Positions 3,896 through 26,267 of a stretch of 34,866 nt of DNA are shown here, in pieces (within the stretch, counting starts at the first letter, position 1; every line of letters starts with the position of its first letter). Where the stretch lies: positions 1 through 34,866 of the IMG/VR virus record IMGVR_UViG_3300037245_001877. One strand, given 5' to 3'. Under the pieces are notes generated by a model. That model saw only the letters and a program-made list of their open reading frames with translations, had not been told where the DNA came from and made no database searches. The DNA comes from a virus. The translations under genes were made by a program, and so were the position numbers.

Positions 3896-4810
3896 TTAGA
3901 CACCCCCATTCTTTTTGTGAGCTATTTTATGACATCTAGCACAAAGAGTTTCCCCGTTATCAATATCAAATCTTTTATTAACTGATTTCGCCCACGGTAT
4001 TATATGGTGTGGTTCGATATCTTTACCAGAATAACCACATCTTTGACAGGTGTATAAATCCTTTTTAAAGACTTCTTTTTTCCATAACCTGTAAGGTGCT
4101 GTATTTCGGCTTTTAGGGTTCAATAAAACCATTCTAATTTTAATTAAACCCTTTTGACTTACTACTGTTGAGACACTTATATGACCCGTTTTAGATACTG
4201 ATTCAACAGACTTAAAAAGACCTTGTTTTTTATATTTTTGATATGGTTGGTTATACTGAGTTAAAAACCCTTCTAGTCTCAATATTTTAGTCAGGTTATT
4301 CCGGCCAACTTCAGGGACGTTTAAAATATCTGAAACCTGCTTTAAGGTTAGCCACTTATCAGATTTAGTAACCATCTCAACAAATTCAACTGCTGGCGTT
4401 TGTTCTATAATCTTGCTCCTTAAGAAAGATATCTTATTTTTATATTCAAGAATATTATTATTAGATATCTGTAGAGCTCTAGCCATAACGACTTCAGGAG
4501 TATTCCAAGCCTTTTCGAGCTCTATTAAATAGCTCCGGTATTCATGCGCTTTATCTGTTTTCATCTGCATCACTAGATGCTTCGCCATTTCAAGAGTAAC
4601 CTTAAAATCAATAACGGGGTTATGGTTCGACATTATGTCGTGCCTTATCCAATCCCTATTTGTCAGAAAAAACACACTATGATTAACATTACCACGAGCC
4701 CACCGCGACCACTGGCTTTTATTCATATCACAATCAAGATACAAATCCCTAAGAGAGCTCACATACTGATTATTGTTTATTGTCTCGACAATTACTAAAT
4801 CATTCATCAT
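3896..4810 (-). CDS. Antirepressor fused to HNH nuclease (AntA-KilAC-HNH, 304 aa)
   Basis: Three parts are visible. Residues about 13-101 match the AntA/AntB antirepressor domain (LRDLYLDC...QWSRWARG; FKVTLEMAKHLVM; EYRSYLIELEKAW). Residues about 148-230 match the KilAC C-terminal domain (DKWLTLKQVSDILNV, then VGRNNLTKILRLEGFL and NQPYQKYKKQGLF). Residues about 240-300 are a complete HNH domain with C255, C258, H268, H269, N285, C290, C293 and H294. Antirepressors normally end after KilAC, so the nuclease tail is unusual. It could be a fusion or a homing-type nuclease captured at the 3' end. Start ATG 4810 (or 4807) overlaps the T5orf172 stop, and the regulator lies two genes upstream. A control role in the lytic switch is likely; cleavage activity is inferred from the motif. 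Confidence 0.8.
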   Translation of the reverse strand: MMNDLVIVETINNNQYVSSLRDLYLDCDMNKSQWSRWARGNVNHSVFFLTNRDWIRHDIMSNHNPVIDFKVTLEMAKHLVMQMKTDKAHEYRSYLIELEKAWNTPEVVMARALQISNNNILEYKNKISFLRSKIIEQTPAVEFVEMVTKSDKWLTLKQVSDILNVPEVGRNNLTKILRLEGFLTQYNQPYQKYKKQGLFKSVESVSKTGHISVSTVVSQKGLIKIRMVLLNPKSRNTAPYRLWKKEVFKKDLYTCQRCGYSGKDIEPHHIIPWAKSVNKRFDIDNGETLCARCHKIAHKKNGGV

Positions 4811-5078
4811 TACCGCCTATATGCATATTAAAGCTAAAGTCATTTATTATTTCTTGATAAGTGCTGCTATCAAAAGTAAACCATTCGTTCTTAAAATTAT
4901 TAAGGACATATTTACCTTGTATAAACTTTTCTAAACCCTTATAGTCTGACAACCTCACAGAGGCCATTAACTCAATATAAGAATTCCCAGTAGAAAACTC
5001 TTTAATCCTTCTATTTAGATCAACAGTACACCCAATTTTGTATTTATCCGCCTCGTTAGTCTGTTTTGCAATATACAC
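4800..5078 (-). CDS. T5orf172/GIY-YIG-like protein (92 aa)
   Basis: VYIAKQTNEADKYKIGCTVDLNRRIKEFSTGNS is the typical opening of the T5orf172 domain, a relative of the GIY-YIG nuclease fold often attached to phage antirepressors. Here it is a separate gene of 92 residues immediately before the antirepressor, and the two overlap (ATGATG within the last codons). The start is unclear. The GTG at 5078 has only a weak AGGA. The same frame is open for about 25 more codons upstream and encodes plausible protein (NGKIYIYEC...CVVGF) without an ATG or GTG. A frameshift or sequencing error near 5085 that separates it from the preceding small gene is possible. Confidence 0.65.
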   Translation of the reverse strand: MYIAKQTNEADKYKIGCTVDLNRRIKEFSTGNSYIELMASVRLSDYKGLEKFIQGKYVLNNFKNEWFTFDSSTYQEIINDFSFNMHIGGNDE

Positions 5079-5541: not shown

Positions 5542-5961
5542 ATGGGAATGATAAAAATAAAGCGGTGTCCTGAATGTGGGAATAGTAATTTAAAAAACAT
5601 GGATGATTTTAGTAAGTGGTATAGAAAATGTTTAGATTGTGGCAATGGCTTCTTTTCAAATAGTCATTACACAATAAAATACAGTGATAAACCATTTTTA
5701 AATTCTTTTAAAATTGGGAGTTTCGTTTCACCTATAGAGGGTAAATCATTTACTCATTTTTGCAGTTGCGACGAATGTCATTATATAGATGGGGATAATC
5801 TATATAAAAAAGGTATTGTTAAAAGTGTTGACAGTATTAAGAAAACTTACGCTATTGATTTTTTCAAGCTTAGAAGGAATGGCGAAAGAACTAAAAAAAT
5901 TGAAACAACGCTTACCTTTTTAGAGGATCAATTAACAGTATATACAGGTACAGCAAAATAA
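5542..5961 (+). CDS. Zinc-ribbon hypothetical protein (139 aa)
   Basis: The N-terminus has a clear zinc ribbon: RCPECGNSNLKN, then RKCLDCGNGFF, as in many Lar-like and restriction-alleviation-type proteins. Further Cys (FCSCDEC) lie around residue 70. ATG at 5542 has AGGTGGTGGTT before it; GTG codons at 5533-5538 are part of that site. This is the first gene of a rightward four-gene operon divergent from the XRE regulator, which suggests early expression under its control. No enzyme motif is seen. Confidence 0.65.
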   Translation: MGMIKIKRCPECGNSNLKNMDDFSKWYRKCLDCGNGFFSNSHYTIKYSDKPFLNSFKIGSFVSPIEGKSFTHFCSCDECHYIDGDNLYKKGIVKSVDSIKKTYAIDFFKLRRNGERTKKIETTLTFLEDQLTVYTGTAK

Positions 5962-5979
5962 ATTAAAAGGTGGTAAATA

Positions 5980-6267
5980 ATGGTAAAAAGTGAGCATAGA
6001 GGGCATAAGATGGAGTTATATAACGGCAAATGGGTTTATAGCGATAATAAACAGGCTGTAAAGGATTTCAATAGACCTTGTGGCTATTGTGCTTTAGAAT
6101 CCACAAAAGAAGGGCATGACGGATGTTTAGGGACATTAAAAGGGTTAATGAATGCATGTTGCGGTCACGGTAATATAAACGAAGCATACATCCAATTATC
6201 AAATGGTAGTGTAATTAGAGGTCAAAAGGCTAGAGACTTTATAGGTAAATTAAAAGGTGGTAAATAA
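5980..6267 (+). CDS. Conserved phage/mobile-element hypothetical protein (95 aa)
   Basis: The signature RPCGYCALESTKEGHDGCLGTL followed by MNACCGHG is one I recognise from a widespread, uncharacterised family in phages and other mobile elements. N-terminal RGHKMELYNGKWVYSD also fits. The Cys/His content suggests a bound metal. The start has AAAAGGTGGTAAATA immediately upstream, and the 3' end contains the same motif serving the next gene. Role unknown. Confidence 0.75.
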   Translation: MVKSEHRGHKMELYNGKWVYSDNKQAVKDFNRPCGYCALESTKEGHDGCLGTLKGLMNACCGHGNINEAYIQLSNGSVIRGQKARDFIGKLKGGK

Positions 6268-6268
6268 T

Positions 6269-6874
6269 ATGAGCAATGTAACAGTAGAAGTAATAAGCGT
6301 AATAGATCACTTTAAATCTGACTTGAATAACAAAACTAATGGACCGTATAAAATTAAAGTAAACGGTGAAAATTACACCTTATTTAGAAACAGTGATTCG
6401 TGGGGTGTTTTGTCCTACTTTATGGACAATCATTTTAGTAAATGCCTCGGTGTCCTTCGTGGCGATAGAATACAAATAATATCAGAAGCTATTGACGAAT
6501 ACATAATGAATAATGTTAAAAACAAATTAAGTGCTGGCATATGCGATCATTGCGAACATTGCACTATATCAAATTTAGGTGGTGGAACTACTGAACCGGA
6601 TCACTTTGCAGGTTTTTGTCCTGAATATAAAACTATAATAGAGCCAGTTCCTGAAGATATGCAATTAACAGAATGTCCAAAATACAAAAAGAGAGTGGTT
6701 AAACACACTATACTATTAACTGAGGAACAATTAAACAAAATAGTTGAGAATATGCTTTGTCCTGGCTTATATGATTTAGAAAATCAACCTTGCGAAATAG
6801 GCAATACAGAAATAAAATGTTTTTATTGCAAAAAGAGCGCACTATTAACAGCTAATAAAAAGGAAGGTGAATAG
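6269..6874 (+). CDS. Cys-rich hypothetical protein (201 aa)
   Basis: The first 90 residues show no Cys motif apart from KCLG. The middle has CDHCEHCTI (about 92-100), and later CPEYK, CPKYKK and a C-terminal CFYCKKSALL. Several zinc sites are likely. Start ATG 6269 lies 2 bases after the previous stop and has AAAAGGTGGTAAATA before it. The protein is larger than its neighbours, but no catalytic motif is recognised. It is co-transcribed with three other small proteins in the rightward early operon. Confidence 0.6.
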   Translation: MSNVTVEVISVIDHFKSDLNNKTNGPYKIKVNGENYTLFRNSDSWGVLSYFMDNHFSKCLGVLRGDRIQIISEAIDEYIMNNVKNKLSAGICDHCEHCTISNLGGGTTEPDHFAGFCPEYKTIIEPVPEDMQLTECPKYKKRVVKHTILLTEEQLNKIVENMLCPGLYDLENQPCEIGNTEIKCFYCKKSALLTANKKEGE

Positions 6875-12403: not shown

Positions 12404-12444
12404 TGCACTTTTAACAACTAAATAACATCTATAGATAACAAAAA

Positions 12445-12467
12445 CCCTCTTAACTGAGGGCTTTATT
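12445..12467. terminator. Bidirectional terminator between converging operons
   Basis: CCCTC (12445-12449) and GAGGG (12456-12460) enclose six bases. T-rich tracts follow on both strands (CTTTATTTTTT rightward, GTTTTTGTT leftward). It separates the rightward MazG gene from the end of the long leftward late operon. Confidence 0.75.
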
Positions 12468-12469
12468 TT

Positions 12470-12904
12470 TTATAATGAATCTTCTATCAAATATTTATAA
12501 AATAATACCGTGCGGTCGCGGTCCATAGTAAACAAAATATTATAACATGAATCTAGTTCTAATCCCTGGGTTATACTAAAGCGCTTTTCAGGACTATTTT
12601 TTAAATCATCTATTGTAAATACTTTCGAATAAGCGGTTATTGCCCTGCCTGTTTTATCATCAATATTATTTTGTTTTAAATCTGCTAAATCTTTTTTTAG
12701 CCCTATAACGTCGTCGGCCATGGGTTTAATCATTCCAGGTACTTCACTATGAATAACTTCTACTACGCTTTCCTTAAACTGGTCAATAACTACCTGAGGG
12801 ACGGCTATATCTCCCCTAGTTCCAGCAATAGCGATATTCATTCCCACCGATCCAGAGAGTAAGATTCCCATAACAATTATTAATAATTTCGTCCACATCT
12901 TCAT
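12470..12904 (-). CDS. Secreted hypothetical protein of the lysis region (144 aa)
   Basis: The N-terminus (MKMWTKLLIIVMGILLSGSVGMNIAIAG) is a good signal peptide or signal anchor. The rest is polar, with amphipathic helices around residues 38-75 (IDQFKESVVEVIHSEV, MADDVIGLKKDLADLKQ), then a mixed C-terminus. It is the last gene of the late leftward operon, and its ATG overlaps the TGA of the preceding lysis-region gene (ATGA). A role in envelope disruption or as a lysis accessory is suggested by position. Family not recognised. Confidence 0.6.
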   Translation of the reverse strand: MKMWTKLLIIVMGILLSGSVGMNIAIAGTRGDIAVPQVVIDQFKESVVEVIHSEVPGMIKPMADDVIGLKKDLADLKQNNIDDKTGRAITAYSKVFTIDDLKNSPEKRFSITQGLELDSCYNILFTMDRDRTVLFYKYLIEDSL

Positions 12905-13344
12905 TTAAATATCTCCTTAATATAATATCTAGTGTATATGTAAATTATAATACTTTCAATAAAAATAACAATGCTGCTAATTAGAGTTGCTTTCTTCCAG
13001 AACTTCACCTTGTCCTCTGTAATACTTAAGGAGATCGATAACTCCTTGAATTCCGTCAATATCTTCTCGTAATCCTTCCTCAATAACTTTAAGTCCACTT
13101 TCGAGCTTTTCAACTTCGTCGACAATGACCTCGACCTCGTCAATAATGATTGAACTTTCGTCAATAGTTTCCCTGATCCCGTCCTCGATATTTTTAATTG
13201 CAATTCCTTGTTCTCTAATGAGTTCTGTACCGTTTCTAATTCCACTATCATTAAGTCTATTGCTTCCAAGGGAATATCCCGTGAAAAAACAGGCTGTACC
13301 AATAACGATAATAATACCAATACAGATAAAAACCTTTTTAACAT
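12901..13344 (-). CDS. Signal-peptide coiled-coil protein with C-terminal membrane span, spanin candidate (147 aa)
   Basis: Residues 1-21 (MLKRFLSVLVLLSLLVQPVFS) form a signal peptide, 30-110 a Leu/Lys-rich coiled coil, and about 116-140 a membrane span (ATLISSIVIFIESIIIYIY). Its ATG overlaps the holin-like stop as TAATG. Over almost all of 12977-13344 a second gene is encoded in another frame. The topology (exported coiled coil, tail in the membrane) would suit a protein that bridges the periplasm. There is no lipobox Cys, so it is not a classic Rz1. Which of the two frames is the conserved one cannot be settled here. Confidence 0.6.
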   Translation of the reverse strand: MLKRFLSVLVLLSLLVQPVFSRDIPLEAIDLMIVELETVQNSLENKELQLKISRTGSGKLLTKVQSLLTRSRSLSTKLKSSKVDLKLLRKDYEKILTEFKELSISLSITEDKVKFWKKATLISSIVIFIESIIIYIYTRYYIKEIFK

Positions 13345-13351
13345 TATTCAT
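12977..13351 (-). CDS. Rz-like inner-membrane spanin candidate, overlapping frame (124 aa)
   Basis: Its ATG at 13351 lies 7 bp before the start of the 147-residue frame, and it shares the AAAGG site. The product has an N-terminal membrane span (about 7-28, VFICIGIIIVIGTACFFTGY) and then a long acidic coiled-coil region (about 45-110) rich in Ile, Glu and Asp. This is the layout of Rz-type i-spanins. Both frames are free of stops for about 370 bp and both read as credible envelope proteins, as in Rz/Rz1 nesting, but here the overlap is nearly total. Assignment rests on topology and context only. Confidence 0.55.
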   Translation of the reverse strand: MNNVKKVFICIGIIIVIGTACFFTGYSLGSNRLNDSGIRNGTELIREQGIAIKNIEDGIRETIDESSIIIDEVEVIVDEVEKLESGLKVIEEGLREDIDGIQGVIDLLKYYRGQGEVLEESNSN

Positions 13352-13544
13352 TTACCTTTCCTTTTAATTTTTCACCAATTAAATGTTTTGCGGTATTTCC
13401 AAAGATTAAAAGCATAGCAATATTAACCCAAAACTTTATTATTTCATAATCACCATCAAGGATAAAAATTACAACACTCCATATAAAACAAAGAAGTAAT
13501 AAAATATAACCCCTGGTTTTCATTTTACCATTAGTGTTTAACAT
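13344..13544 (-). CDS. Holin-like membrane protein (66 aa)
   Basis: There are two hydrophobic spans, about 12-29 (YILLLLCFIWSVVIFIL) and 37-50 (FWVNIAMLLIFG), joined by a short acidic loop, with a basic C-terminus (GEKLKGKVNE). This fits a class II holin that permeabilises the inner membrane and frees the endolysin. It overlaps the endolysin gene by 7 bp and is followed by the spanin-like pair, a typical cassette order. The start is ATG 13544; an ATG seven codons later is possible. Confidence 0.65.
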   Translation of the reverse strand: MLNTNGKMKTRGYILLLLCFIWSVVIFILDGDYEIIKFWVNIAMLLIFGNTAKHLIGEKLKGKVNE

Positions 13545-14092
13545 ATTCTATCCATCTCTTCAGCAACCATTATTTTAAAAAGTATAAACTCTTTAGGGTT
13601 ATCCACGTAAAATTTAGGGCATATTTTACCTGTAATGTCGTAATGCCTACAAATATCTTCCAACGGATCTAAATTATTCTCTATGCATTGCTCAGCACAA
13701 TAGACAACGGTATTTGCTAAAGTCATTATGTCTGGCTTGCCTGTTTTTGTAGGGTGATACATTTCTACGCCTAAAACCCGGCAGTTAGGCCACGAGGATA
13801 TTTTTAAACCATATTGAGTGTAGTTTTTAGATCCTACATGATAGGCAATTTCATCTACTGGAATACAATTAATAATTTCCGTACTATCTATAAAAACATG
13901 AGCAGATGCGTAAGTATCTTTTATATTATCAGTAGAATCTTGATTTTTTAAGCCTTTAATATACTCTACGTTTTGCCGTGCTGTAGTTGCATGGTTCCCG
14001 AAATAATGGATGGCTATTTTATCTACTGATCTTAATTTGTCACCACATCTTGAAAACTCATTGATTGGAATAAAATCTTTTATAATAACCAA
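13538..14092 (-). CDS. Endolysin, N-acetylmuramoyl-L-alanine amidase (184 aa)
   Basis: This is an Amidase_2/PGRP-fold enzyme that cuts the bond between muramic acid and L-alanine. Zinc ligands are visible: H29 in IAIHYFG, H150 in RHYD and C158 in TGKICP, as in T7 lysozyme. SAHVFID (63-69) and VLGVEMYH (106-113) are conserved core strands. There is no separate cell-wall-binding domain and no signal peptide, so release depends on the holin. The start is TTG at 14092, six bases after AAAGGTGG, with no upstream ATG in frame nearby. Confidence 0.85.
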   Translation of the reverse strand: MVIIKDFIPINEFSRCGDKLRSVDKIAIHYFGNHATTARQNVEYIKGLKNQDSTDNIKDTYASAHVFIDSTEIINCIPVDEIAYHVGSKNYTQYGLKISSWPNCRVLGVEMYHPTKTGKPDIMTLANTVVYCAEQCIENNLDPLEDICRHYDITGKICPKFYVDNPKEFILFKIMVAEEMDRIC

Positions 14093-17986: not shown

Positions 17987-20727
17987 TTTATACCTACCCT
18001 TTGATTAGCATTAACTAATGCCGGTCTTAATTTTATTGCAAAATCTTCTAAATCTCTTTTTGTTGTCATTGTTCTACCATATATATTAACAGTTATTCCG
18101 CCTGACCGTCCACCTAATAGTTTGGCTGTCTCCCTGGCGTTTTCCTGGGCTAATTGCTTTCTAAGTGCGGCACCCTTTGAACCCATCCCCTGAATTATTT
18201 CACCCTGGTTATTTTCTCCAACCGTTACGTCAACACCTCGCTGGCTTCCAGCTACTACAAGACCAGTATTTAATTGTGGTTTTGGTGGTGCTTTTTGTGA
18301 AGAAATAACACCTATTTGAAATGCTCCCGCTAGTCCTGAGGCTATCATTAACGGAACATTAGGAATTGACGCGGCTATCCCTCTGGCTGTCGTTACTACT
18401 GCTTCAGCTAAAGAGAGCGCCTGAGTAGCTTTAAATTGCGCTAAGTCTATTTTATATTTTTTATTTGCAAATTCTTTCTCTATTCTAAGTTTCTCGGCTG
18501 CCTTTTCTGCTTCTATTCTATCCGCTTCCGTTTTTGCTGCCTCTGATATCGTTAACCGTTCGGCCTCTGCATCTTCCTGGGCATTTGTTATATCTTTTAT
18601 TCTTTGCTCTTTGTCCAGGTTCGCTTTATCTTCTAAGATCCTTAAGGCTGCGTCGTTGTCTATTTTTAATTGTAGTCTTTTCGCTTCCTCTGCATCTTCA
18701 ATTTCGCCACTGGCTAATAATTCTACTATCCGGGCTTCTGTATCTGCAATTTCTGTCTCTCTTCGCTGTTGGTCTAAAGTATCTCTAAATTCGGATAGCT
18801 CTTTTTCTGCTGCTGTCTCTATATTTAATTCTTCAAGTTTTAGAGCTAATTTATCAGATGTTAGTTTTAATTCGCTTGCCAGCTCTTTGTTATTTGTATC
18901 TATGGCATTCTTAAGAGCTATGTTATTTATATTTATTTCTTCGTTTAATTGGTCGTTTAATATTCTTAATTCTTCTTTAGATTCGTTAGACGCTATTTGT
19001 AATAGACTTGACGCTACGCTTAAAACTGCATTTATATACTGATTAGCAAGATCAATCATACTATCAAACTTTTCTTTTTCGTCTTTTAGTTCCTGTTCCC
19101 GGATCTTCTTTTTTTCTTCTCGAGCATCTTTAAGAATATCGAGAGTTTCTATATCAAAATCACGCCTTGCCTTGGCTTCAGCTAATATTGCCGCTTCAAT
19201 GTCGGCCGCCTCTTCGTCTAATATCGCCTTTTTATCTGCCTGTAGTTGCTCAGTAGCTTTTAATTGATCGTCTGAAAACTTACCAGCTGCTAACCCTAAT
19301 TTATTAATAAAGGCTATTTGTTCGTCAAGTAGTTGTATTTCTGATTTATGATTTTGCAAGATCTCTTGAACTGCGTCATTCTGGTCTGTATAAAGTTTTA
19401 ATTGTGCTGCTGTCAGAGTTGTTGTTGATTCAATAGTTTCGTCAAGTATTTTTTTAGTTTCTTTTCTCCTAGTATTGCTAGCGTTAATTCTTTCGTTTAT
19501 TTCTTTATAATAATCTAAATCCTGTTGATAGAGGTCTTTGCTGAGAGCAAGAATACTAATTAATTCCTCTTTAGTTATATTGAATTGCTCTTGAACTATC
19601 TTTTCTGATTCCGCCAATGTTTCACCCTGGAATACTAGGTTAGCAAACTCTAAGTTTATCGCGTTTAATTCTTTAGCTGTTTTCCCTGAAGATTCCGCCA
19701 AACCATCAAAGTTCTTTTCGCTCTCTAATAAGTTCGCTTCGTTAATAAGTTTTATTCCGGCAACTATAGCAGTTATAGCAATTAAAGCAAGGCCGATACC
19801 ACCCTTAGGAGTAGCCAACAATTTAAAAGCTTTGTTTAATTTTAATACCGCGGTAACTGCCGGCCCCGCTACTGCTGCTATTCCGGCAACCCCTATTATT
19901 ACTTTTTTTGATTCGTCGCTTAATTCAACCCATTCAACCAATAATCCATTTACAGCCTCTAAAATATCGGCCACTGCTGGTAATAGTATATTCCCAAACT
20001 CAACAGCTAAATCTTTTGTACGCTCTTGGACTAGCTTTGTCTGGTTGGCTACACTGTCAGAAGTTCTTAAATAATCGCCCTGGGCGTCTCCTGTCTGCTG
20101 TAGGATTAAAGTAAACGTAGCTTGTGCCTTTGCAAGTTTACCGGCCTGGCCTGTTAATTTATCTTGGCCTGTTCTTACAAGTTCTTGTTTTATATCTACA
20201 TCTAAAAGAGATACACCTAGTTCCGACAAACCGTCTTTATTCCCTAAAACTGATTTAGTTAATATTTTTGATACCCTAGAGGCTCCACCCTGGACATTAT
20301 TATAAGAGGCTAAATCAACGGCTAGTTTTTGTATTTCTAATGAGAAATCTAAGGCACCATCAGCACTGGCACCAAAACCTTTTAATAAATCCCCTGTATC
20401 ACCAAGTAATTTTTCAGAAGATTGTCGAGCTAATCCATATTGTAAGGATAATTCTTTAGCTGTCTTAGCTGCTCTATCTTCTATACCGGCGAATGCTGTA
20501 TTAAATTTAGCCCTTGACTCTTCAGCATCCGACGCAAACTTAATAGCAGCAATAGACATTGCAAGGATAGGGAGTGTAACTTTACGGTTAGCCGTATCGC
20601 CAAACTTTTTCATAGAGGCTTCAAACTTTTCTGTTTTCTTTTTTGAAGCGTCTATACTTTTATCATATTGAGCGGTTTCACCGGTTATCAATACAAGTAA
20701 TTCGCCTAATACGTCCGTTGCTGGCAT
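17983..20727 (-). CDS. Tape measure protein (914 aa)
   Basis: This is the longest gene. The N-terminal 250 residues are helical with an Ala-rich core; the segment around residues 70-210 contains QYGLARQSSEKLLGDTGDLL and VLGNKDGLSELGVSLLDVDI, typical of phage tape measures. Hydrophobic spans follow (about 275-335, AGIAAVAGPAVTAVL; GLALIAITAIVAGI). A very long coiled coil of Glu, Lys and Ala covers about 430-800, then a hydrophobic and basic tail. At about 0.15 nm per residue the tail would be near 135 nm. ATG 20727 follows AGAGGGGATTGA and lies just after the end of the frameshifted chaperone. Confidence 0.9.
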   Translation of the reverse strand: MPATDVLGELLVLITGETAQYDKSIDASKKKTEKFEASMKKFGDTANRKVTLPILAMSIAAIKFASDAEESRAKFNTAFAGIEDRAAKTAKELSLQYGLARQSSEKLLGDTGDLLKGFGASADGALDFSLEIQKLAVDLASYNNVQGGASRVSKILTKSVLGNKDGLSELGVSLLDVDIKQELVRTGQDKLTGQAGKLAKAQATFTLILQQTGDAQGDYLRTSDSVANQTKLVQERTKDLAVEFGNILLPAVADILEAVNGLLVEWVELSDESKKVIIGVAGIAAVAGPAVTAVLKLNKAFKLLATPKGGIGLALIAITAIVAGIKLINEANLLESEKNFDGLAESSGKTAKELNAINLEFANLVFQGETLAESEKIVQEQFNITKEELISILALSKDLYQQDLDYYKEINERINASNTRRKETKKILDETIESTTTLTAAQLKLYTDQNDAVQEILQNHKSEIQLLDEQIAFINKLGLAAGKFSDDQLKATEQLQADKKAILDEEAADIEAAILAEAKARRDFDIETLDILKDAREEKKKIREQELKDEKEKFDSMIDLANQYINAVLSVASSLLQIASNESKEELRILNDQLNEEININNIALKNAIDTNNKELASELKLTSDKLALKLEELNIETAAEKELSEFRDTLDQQRRETEIADTEARIVELLASGEIEDAEEAKRLQLKIDNDAALRILEDKANLDKEQRIKDITNAQEDAEAERLTISEAAKTEADRIEAEKAAEKLRIEKEFANKKYKIDLAQFKATQALSLAEAVVTTARGIAASIPNVPLMIASGLAGAFQIGVISSQKAPPKPQLNTGLVVAGSQRGVDVTVGENNQGEIIQGMGSKGAALRKQLAQENARETAKLLGGRSGGITVNIYGRTMTTKRDLEDFAIKLRPALVNANQRVGIK

Positions 20728-23934: not shown

Positions 23935-24516
23935 TTAAAGCCCGCTCATATATTTAGGTAAAGCTTTAACAAACCAGGTCGGCATTCCACTAACACCATC
24001 AATCTTATTATCTGCATCACTATAAGTAACGCTTAAAGGTGGTATTGATTTTGATTTAACAGACTTTGCCGGCGCGTTTGTATTCTGCTGACCTGTTAAA
24101 AACCATACGCCCTTGGCTATCGTTGGCAAATAAGCTATTGATATACCAAAGTATAGGTCTTGGCCTGAATTAGTCGCTACTACAGCCTTAGAAAGTTCTA
24201 CAAAAGGAGTCTTGTAACTGGTCCCGCTAATATCAAAAACATCCCTACCAATAAAAATATTAACAATAGTTGTATCAGCGTCGATATTATCGCCAAATAA
24301 TTGTTGTCCAGCTTCCAGGCTTTCACCGTTATACTCTAATAATTCTAAATATTTTGTGCTGTCTAAATTACCGTAGTAATGATCGTTAAAATTATGATTA
24401 GTAATAAGTTTTACTTTGCTATCTATTATAGGAATATAAGCATCAATAAGAGCGTCATGATCTGTAACTGTGATTCCTAAGTATAATTTAACTTGATCTC
24501 TAGTTATTATAAACAC
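23935..24516 (-). CDS. Head-tail connector, SPP1 gp15/HK97 gp6 type (193 aa)
   Basis: The N-terminal helix DQVKLYLGITVTDHDALIDAYIPIIDSKV is typical of the gp6/gp15 adaptor that binds the portal. A beta-rich insertion follows (about 50-120), making it longer than usual, then LSKAVVATNSGQDL and a final helix. The start is a GTG at 24516 that overlaps the upstream stop as TAGTG, with GAGGAATTATA before it. Confidence 0.7.
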   Translation of the reverse strand: MFIITRDQVKLYLGITVTDHDALIDAYIPIIDSKVKLITNHNFNDHYYGNLDSTKYLELLEYNGESLEAGQQLFGDNIDADTTIVNIFIGRDVFDISGTSYKTPFVELSKAVVATNSGQDLYFGISIAYLPTIAKGVWFLTGQQNTNAPAKSVKSKSIPPLSVTYSDADNKIDGVSGMPTWFVKALPKYMSGL

Positions 24517-26267
24517 TATAATTCCTCACTTACTGCATCAATATGCATATCCATTGTCTGAATAGTATTATTTTGACTTGTTATTATTTCAAAGATTATA
24601 CCCTCCGAAGCATCCCCATGTATAAAGGTATCTAATAAAACCCTCTTCCAAGATCCATCTTCGTTATCGTTAACATCTCCGGCTAATACTTGGTCAACGC
24701 TCTTTCTAGCGATATCTCCATTTCCAGGAACAAAACCCGACGCCGAATATGTCCAGCCCTCCGGTTTATGGTGTTTTAAAGCGATATCAAAACTAGCGTC
24801 AAGAGCGTTACCCTGCCAAACACATTCTAGCCCGGTAAGAGTAAAATCCTTATTCCCTAAATCGTCATACTTAGAATACCCATAATTAAAAGTTAAACTA
24901 TAATTAACCGGTGATCCTGAAACAATATACAATTCAAAAGTAACCTGGCCGGAAAACTTTTTAAATGTCTCCGCCATTACATCGGCTGTCAAAGTCGTTA
25001 TATCCTCAGTTATAACGCCAGTTTGCGCGGCCACTTGTATTCCTGTTTCGCTATCTTCTATACCTGTTACTTTTAAACCTACTTGACCGGCATCTACAAC
25101 ACCTGGACCATCTGGCACAATACCAACATGAGCAGCATAAGCCCGCCCACTATCACCAAATATTTGCGTCAAAGATCCTTGATTCAAAGTAATGGAAGTT
25201 GCGGCCCAATCGTAAAACCCGCCTTTATAGTAAAGTCCCTCACCTATACCTCTTGATGTAAAAGCGTAACCCTTTCCTAAGTCGGCCCTCACAAGTCGTT
25301 GATAATTAATAAAAATCTCACCATCAGAAACACCCGTCTTTGTCACAGCACCAACTAGAATCCTTTGCTCTGGATATAGTGGCCTTATTTGAGTATACCA
25401 ACCATCTGAATCTGCATAAATAAACCCTTGTATTAAACTTTGAGTATTCATACCTTTAACAAGGCCATAGGATGTAACTATCCCAGGCTCACCGGGTGGA
25501 ATATCCATAGTAGCGATCCCGGCAAAAGCTAAAGCATTTAAACCCGTACTTGAATCAGTAGGGTAAATGTCTGGTAATACTTTCGGGACCCCTAAAACTA
25601 TCACAGTAGAAAATGTAACCGTAACAGAAACAGGATCACCATTTTTAATAAGAGTACCGGTTATATTAAAAAACTCTCCCTGAGTTTCCCTGCCGGCGTC
25701 AACTACTACGTCAGTATATCCGGTATGTAACATATGATTTTTTAAAACTGGATCGTAAGAAAATCGACCCTCTTTATATGGAGTGGTTAATTTCCCAACT
25801 AAATCAACATAACACCCAAAGTTCGTATTATCTAAATCCGGGGTTACGGCAGTAACAACACCGGTTAAACTAATATATCTAACACCTAAATAATTTATAA
25901 AAGATCCTATTTCTAATGTAGGGCTAACAGCAAAAAAAGCGGCCCAATCGGTAGTAACATCGAAAATAACAGTTTTTAAAGAATTGACTGATTGTTCTTC
26001 CCAAAATCCCCAATAATTATTAACCGGGTCAACGTCTATATCGTTCTTAACAATATAAAGCCCTGGCGGTTTCTCATACTTAGGCGCCGTCCAAAAAATT
26101 ACTTTGGAAGATGTAAATTCATTCTCCCCGAAAATAACCTTTGAAAGATCCCCAATAAGATAATTAGCGGCTGGATAGCCCGCAAGTAAAGCACTGTAAT
26201 TTAGAACTGAAGCTTTAATAAAGGCATCACTAGACCCAATAACGCTGTTAGATTCTCGAATACTCAC
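24516..26267 (-). CDS. Large virion surface protein, head appendage candidate (583 aa)
   Basis: This long beta-rich protein stands between two small post-capsid genes and the connector, a place where most siphophages have no gene this large. Residues about 280-315 (GFIYADSDGWYTQIRPLYPEQRILVGAVTKTG) resemble the beta-structured trunk parts of fibres, and the end is Asp/Thr-rich. A head fibre or decoration protein is the best guess. It could also be an adsorption protein made out of its usual place. Start GTG 26267 overlaps the stop before it as TAGTG. No transmembrane segment or enzyme motif is seen. Confidence 0.5.
   Translation of the reverse strand: MSIRESNSVIGSSDAFIKASVLNYSALLAGYPAANYLIGDLSKVIFGENEFTSSKVIFWTAPKYEKPPGLYIVKNDIDVDPVNNYWGFWEEQSVNSLKTVIFDVTTDWAAFFAVSPTLEIGSFINYLGVRYISLTGVVTAVTPDLDNTNFGCYVDLVGKLTTPYKEGRFSYDPVLKNHMLHTGYTDVVVDAGRETQGEFFNITGTLIKNGDPVSVTVTFSTVIVLGVPKVLPDIYPTDSSTGLNALAFAGIATMDIPPGEPGIVTSYGLVKGMNTQSLIQGFIYADSDGWYTQIRPLYPEQRILVGAVTKTGVSDGEIFINYQRLVRADLGKGYAFTSRGIGEGLYYKGGFYDWAATSITLNQGSLTQIFGDSGRAYAAHVGIVPDGPGVVDAGQVGLKVTGIEDSETGIQVAAQTGVITEDITTLTADVMAETFKKFSGQVTFELYIVSGSPVNYSLTFNYGYSKYDDLGNKDFTLTGLECVWQGNALDASFDIALKHHKPEGWTYSASGFVPGNGDIARKSVDQVLAGDVNDNEDGSWKRVLLDTFIHGDASEGIIFEIITSQNNTIQTMDMHIDAVSEEL

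Follow-up and report, generated by a model that had tools for sequence, protein, structure and literature searches.

Known spanins and the lysis operon of the window phage

The defining component of spanins is an outer-membrane lipoprotein. In the described systems closest to the locus reported here, lambda Rz/Rz1 and P2 LysB/LysC, the spanin genes lie in a lysis operon after endolysin and holin genes, one of the partners is a coiled-coil protein with an N-terminal anchor, and the second gene is read from the same strand in the +1 frame. According to Kongari et al. 2018 (PMC6139136), nested or overlapping spanin genes are common, and the second of two nested genes usually starts at 0.4–0.5 of the length of the first. 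The same study reports that about 13% of 677 surveyed phages of Gram-negative hosts were without a recognisable spanin. Some phages, such as the “spanin-less” Acinetobacter phage Petty, have endolysin and holin-like genes and no lipoprotein in any frame, and must break the outer membrane otherwise. The authors also name type I inner-membrane proteins, which have their span at the C-terminus, as possible spanin parts that fell outside the search of that survey.

Here, we analyzed a phage sequence of 34,866 nt from an environmental DNA sample (IMGVR_UViG_3300037245_001877, positions 1 to 34,866; hereafter “the window”). Its lysis operon, on the minus strand, runs from an endolysin gene through a gene for a 66-aa holin-like protein to two almost fully overlapping genes, designated A and B, and then to a gene for a 144-aa protein and a hairpin. 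An initial annotation of the DNA had described two same-strand frames with starts 7 bp apart, both open for about 370 bp and located behind endolysin and holin genes; the coordinates, strand, and lengths were confirmed, the overlap measuring 368 nt, and the operon position was also right. The features are as follows.

13538–14092, minus: endolysin, N-acetylmuramoyl-L-alanine amidase (Amidase_2), 184 aa (PHROG lysis, 2.2e-29; Pfam PF01510, 1.2e-14)
13344–13544, minus: 66-aa membrane protein, resembling a holin in size and place (ORF; no family match)
13352–13365, minus: ribosome-binding stretch, AAAAGGAAAGG followed by TAA, common to the A and B start codons (sequence)
12977–13351, minus: frame A gene, 124 aa (ORF and translation, hydropathy, AlphaFold2, heptad, codon scores)
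12901–13344, minus: frame B gene, 147 aa, +1 relative to A (ORF and translation, hydropathy, AlphaFold2, codon evidence)
12977–13344, minus: dual-coded segment, 368 nt, two frames open and 18 stops in the third
12901–12976, minus: B-only tail coding for most of the C-terminal span (T-ending codons back to phage-like levels)
12470–12904, minus: last gene of the operon, 144 aa, N-terminal signal or anchor (ORF, hydropathy; no relatives)
12441–12464, minus: terminator-like hairpin at the operon end

No cell-wall-binding domain was found in the endolysin. The 66-aa protein has one clear span by hydropathy (residues 13–31) and a second, weaker hydrophobic stretch discernible by eye. Both start positions are fixed by upstream stops, that of A by a TAA immediately 5′ of its ATG and that of B by a TGA two codons 5′ of its ATG. 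B shares bases with both neighboring genes, its ATG with the stop of the 66-aa gene (TAATG) and its stop with the start of the 144-aa gene (ATGA). In contrast to nested genes of the Rz/Rz1 type, B starts at about 0.02 of the length of A, and nearly all of A is dual-coded.

Codon choice in the two overlapping frames

In the shifted (+1 and +2) frames of 32 other window genes, the longest stop-free run was 64 codons, compared with about 122 in the A/B overlap. We calculated the probability of an open frame by fixing the amino acids of the partner and drawing codons at the phage's own frequencies. With the A protein fixed, frame B was expected to contain 17.7 stops on average and to be open with P = 4.2e-12; with the B protein fixed, the values for frame A were 11.6 stops and P = 7.8e-8. 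A weaker null, in which codons were drawn only from A's or B's own set, gave 0.03 and 0.001, respectively. These values are higher because the codon sets of A and B are themselves shaped by the overlap, and we therefore examined context-specific signals.

A third-position adenine in frame A harms B only where the second base of the codon is T and the next base is A or G. At such stop-making sites, none of 34 codons ended in adenine (51% expected from the phage average), whereas 37 of 65 did so at all other sites (average 44%; Fisher p = 1.4e-9). Among the Ile, Leu, and Val codons, the NTA form accounted for 1 of 40 in A and for 24–74% in each of the 32 other genes, and the single NTA codon of A is a TTA before CGA, a context harmless to B. 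If only frame A were real and frame B accidentally open, this stop avoidance, with NTA depletion confined to contexts that would stop B, would not be expected; nor would the minute probability of an open B given A, the perfect abutment of B with both neighboring genes, or the recurrence of the pattern in a second phage (see below). We thus regard that reading as extremely improbable, even though A has a clean coiled coil and a codon-position composition normal for the phage, and the codon use of B is atypical within the overlap. The GC contents at the three codon positions were 0.50, 0.29, and 0.30 in A and 0.46, 0.36, and 0.29 in the phage, compared with 0.26, 0.28, and 0.46 in B. Because the composition of A is normal for the phage and that of B within the overlap is not, the frame of A is probably the older one, and B was probably overprinted on it.

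The reciprocal signals were found in B. A third base T was absent where it would be harmful to A (0/28) and present in 12 of 60 codons elsewhere (p = 0.008). T-ending codons in B increased from 13/90 within the overlap to 13/20 past it (p = 1.2e-5), the shift falling exactly at the stop of A, and GC3 changed from 61/121 within the overlap to 5/24 past the end of A. Furthermore, the codon scores of frame A resembled those of the phage's other genes and lay beyond the range reached by shifted frames of real genes. It could be argued that only B is real and frame A accidental, as B by itself fits the operon through its TAATG and ATGA junctions; however, the shift in T-ending codons, the codon scores of A, its strong heptad period, and the low probability of an open A given B all contradict this, and we give this reading next to no credence. 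When same-strand overlaps in related loci were used as controls, the window pair ranked lowest of 35 in joint probability. The evidence supports dual coding well, and both frames are very probably genes. Taken in both directions, the codon evidence rejects the reservation in the initial annotation that only one frame may be real, as does an independent second example.

A second phage with the same arrangement

The control scan of same-strand overlaps brought to light a second pair in a 39.3-kb record, IMGVR_UViG_3300027739_000001 (locus L170), from a phage whose terminase is about 30% identical to that of the window phage. Its lysis cassette comprises the following genes.

L170 1446–1874: M15 endolysin (PHROG lysis, 2.6e-21; Pfam, 9.5e-13)
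L170 1871–2062: small membrane protein, 63 aa
L170 2059–2385: A-like gene, N-terminal span and coil, 108 aa
L170 2075–2440: B-like gene, signal peptide, helix, and C-terminal span, 121 aa, +1 relative to the A-like gene

The two phages have in common the A/B topologies, the +1 frame, the codon signature, and the order endolysin, small membrane protein, A/B pair. In the L170 pair, NTA codons numbered 1 of 35, again in a harmless context, the third frame contained 16 stops, and T-ending codons of the B-like gene increased from 12/79 in the overlap to 9/16 after it (p = 0.001). The B-like start is preceded, seven bases upstream and within the A-like gene, by AAAGGA. The initial annotation had named, as evidence against two genes, related phages in which one frame is broken by stops and the other kept; we found the opposite, in that the sole other phage found with this arrangement keeps both frames open. 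When the two pairs were compared directly, the best DNA register was not significant (P = 0.34), and the protein registers, which are not independent of one another, agreed weakly (P about 0.015–0.0175); shared ancestry of the pairs, as judged from these alignments, is not proven. A class 3 lipase-like gene (L170:424–969, plus; Pfam, 2.3e-10) is located just before the second phage's lysis cassette.

Predicted proteins and comparison with known spanins

A is predicted to have its N-terminus inside and a single N-terminal span (residues 7–25 by hydropathy). A single-sequence AlphaFold2 model showed helices at residues 2–27 and 35–123, with pLDDT over 90 across much of the coil, and the heptad period was 3.50, none of 2,000 shuffles being as strong. 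These features agree with the N-terminal membrane anchor and acidic coiled coil previously ascribed to A. For B, the proposed signal peptide and C-terminal span corresponded to hydrophobic stretches at residues 2–20 and 119–137, with a basic helical middle between them; the AlphaFold2 model was all helix with low confidence, and heptad periodicity was weak (P = 0.06; P = 0.96 in the B-like protein of the second phage). The coils of the window pair carry opposite charges (A residues 61–90, +2/−10; B residues 56–92, +10/−2). In the window this is suggestive of charge-complementary pairing of the A and B coils; it is not claimed as a rule, the second pair not matching this strength (net +3 and −3). 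That two coiled-coil proteins can share the same DNA is explained in part by the carry-over of hydrophobicity patterns between frames, described as a general property of the genetic code (PMC7084103).

Neither strict nor relaxed patterns revealed a lipobox in A, B, or any other frame of the window, a record that may be incomplete, and this bears out the earlier remark that neither protein has the lipobox of an o-spanin. Similarly, no lipobox protein was found in any frame of the second phage's record with either pattern set; the same scan detected lipoprotein-like starts in three other phages. Because no frame of either phage record encodes a lipobox protein, the pair does not qualify as a canonical spanin: it has the overlapping genes within a lysis cassette and, in A, the predicted N-terminal span and coil of the Rz/Rz1 type (calling the coil periplasmic assumes a two-membrane host), but it lacks the lipobox, which among the features examined is the one that defines both kinds of spanin. 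The window pair resembles lambda Rz/Rz1 and P2 LysB/LysC in operon place, in the anchored coiled-coil partner, and in the +1 second gene, and differs from them in having no lipoprotein and in the C-terminal membrane span of its second protein. Like unimolecular spanins of the T1 gp11 type, B has a signal for export at its N-terminus and a membrane span at its C-terminus; unlike them, it has no lipobox cysteine, is predicted to be all helix, and has an overlapping partner. The window phage resembles “spanin-less” phages such as Petty in having endolysin and holin-like genes and no lipoprotein in any frame, but its cassette contains a candidate replacement pair. The NCBIfam model spanin2_2 aligned to the C-terminal part of B with an E-value of 0.032 and 14.3 bits against a cut-off of 100, and this model also has sub-threshold matches in archaeal control genomes.

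It is very unlikely that the pair is a canonical two-component spanin whose lipobox was missed or lost through sequencing error. A does have the i-spanin topology, and nested or overlapping genes are common among spanins (PMC6139136); however, B has an inner-membrane span, the second, independent pair is likewise without a lipobox, and a scan that was positive in three other phages found none in any frame of either record. The suggestion in the initial annotation of a new spanin arrangement thus holds in part: the pair has the lysis-operon place and a topology compatible with unconventional spanins (PMC6139136), but an outer-membrane lipoprotein is absent and B has an inner-membrane C-terminal span. 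The predicted topology of B is the type I inner-membrane kind with a C-terminal span that is named as a possible spanin part in PMC6139136.

Proposed role in lysis

The best reading is that A and B are a pair of lysis proteins, dual-coded and anchored in the membrane without a lipid, an explanation that we consider moderately probable as a whole when averaged over its steps. The 368-nt stretch would yield two membrane proteins from different frames, and these are probably made together because their starts lie within 7 nt behind one ribosome-binding stretch. A would be held by its N-terminus in the cytoplasmic membrane with its long coiled coil pointing outwards; B would be exported via its signal peptide, with a helical outer part and the C-terminal span as its anchor. 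The two would most likely pair outside the cytoplasmic membrane and, after the action of holin and endolysin, may complete the disruption of the envelope in a spanin-like role without a lipid anchor.

The adjoining endolysin in both phages supports a role in lysis, and place and topology, which are the sole basis for assigning function here, make it likely that A and B act together in this process. The same two features suggest a spanin-like action only tentatively, and without a lipobox there is no known way for the pair to reach the outer membrane. It is somewhat doubtful that the pair represents a class of lipid-free disruptors, in which two inner-membrane-anchored coiled-coil proteins of opposite orientation, encoded by almost fully overlapping genes, replace the lipoprotein spanin in phages devoid of one.

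Alternatively, both proteins may be real and act on the holin, as a regulator/antiholin pair or as a multi-subunit holin, rather than on the outer membrane, in a host that perhaps has no outer membrane. The pair directly follows the small membrane protein, the phage has no lipobox, and the window endolysin and tail protein were nearest to Gram-positive-type sequences among those searched: the closest phage relatives of the endolysin are of Bacillus type, and the tail protein was nearest to a Clostridia genome. These hints point towards Bacillota as the host of the window phage, and a holin-regulating role therefore keeps some probability. Long coiled coils outside the membrane are nevertheless atypical of holin regulators, and the closest sequences of the second phage belong to phages of two-membrane hosts: its terminase is 45% identical to that of a Helicobacter prophage and 41% to that of a Vibrio phage, and its helicase-methyltransferase is 49% identical to those of Flavobacterium phages. 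On balance, we consider action on the holin rather unlikely.

Found in the lysis cassette of each of two distant phages, the lipid-free, dual-coded pair is a concrete candidate for the means by which phages without a recognisable spanin break the outer membrane. Gene callers would miss a same-strand overlap of two membrane proteins as nearly complete as this one, and codon choice within one genome is enough to recognize it as real.

Searches for relatives and other overlapping genes

When 3.0 Mb of related loci were scanned for the A/B topology, no other convincing pair was found, nor did one occur in six phage genomes, annotated or deposited, that are related to the window or the second phage. 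Neither protein of either pair had a relative in 50,697 phage records. In INPHARED, tblastn with A, B, and the operon's last gene (12470–12904) returned no close relative for any of the three. Searches of IMG/VR by peptide pattern returned no close relatives of A, B, the last gene, or the endolysin, and the window terminase had none in IMG/VR and GTDB contigs. Relatives reached via tail and head proteins shared structural genes alone, their lysis genes being unrelated or out of reach. Two matches in Clostridia genomes were rejected as spurious, that of B because it crosses five stops and that of the last gene because it sits within a thiamine pyrophosphokinase-like gene; profile matches to MukB, relaxase, and VanY were discarded as sub-threshold coiled-coil or membrane matches.

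Several other features were observed in these sequences. At 24516–26267 (minus) of the window, the C-terminal 420 residues of the product show about 50% identity to proteins from two otherwise unrelated phage contigs, L174 and L175, with no other gene in common within the compared stretches. The product of the gene at 3896–4810 (minus) joins an antirepressor, with its AntA and KilAC domains, to an HNH endonuclease domain. A 143-aa open frame at 18611–19042 (plus) runs antisense to the tape-measure gene and probably arises from codon bias. The C5 DNA methyltransferase genes of three divergent loci each share 519–822 nt with a second, same-strand open frame.

L170:5905–6660 with 5922–6629, minus: C5 DNA methyltransferase overlap
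L005 15082–16186 and 15296–16118 (reverse-complement coordinates), minus: C5 DNA methyltransferase overlap
L135:4296–5084 with 4483–5001, plus: C5 DNA methyltransferase overlap

The second-frame products have the motifs WPTP and GFPxGWTDL in common, and that of L170 matches PHROG 1008, which is also named DNA methyltransferase. As far as these sequence matches indicate, this overlap may be a recurrent dual-coded pair.
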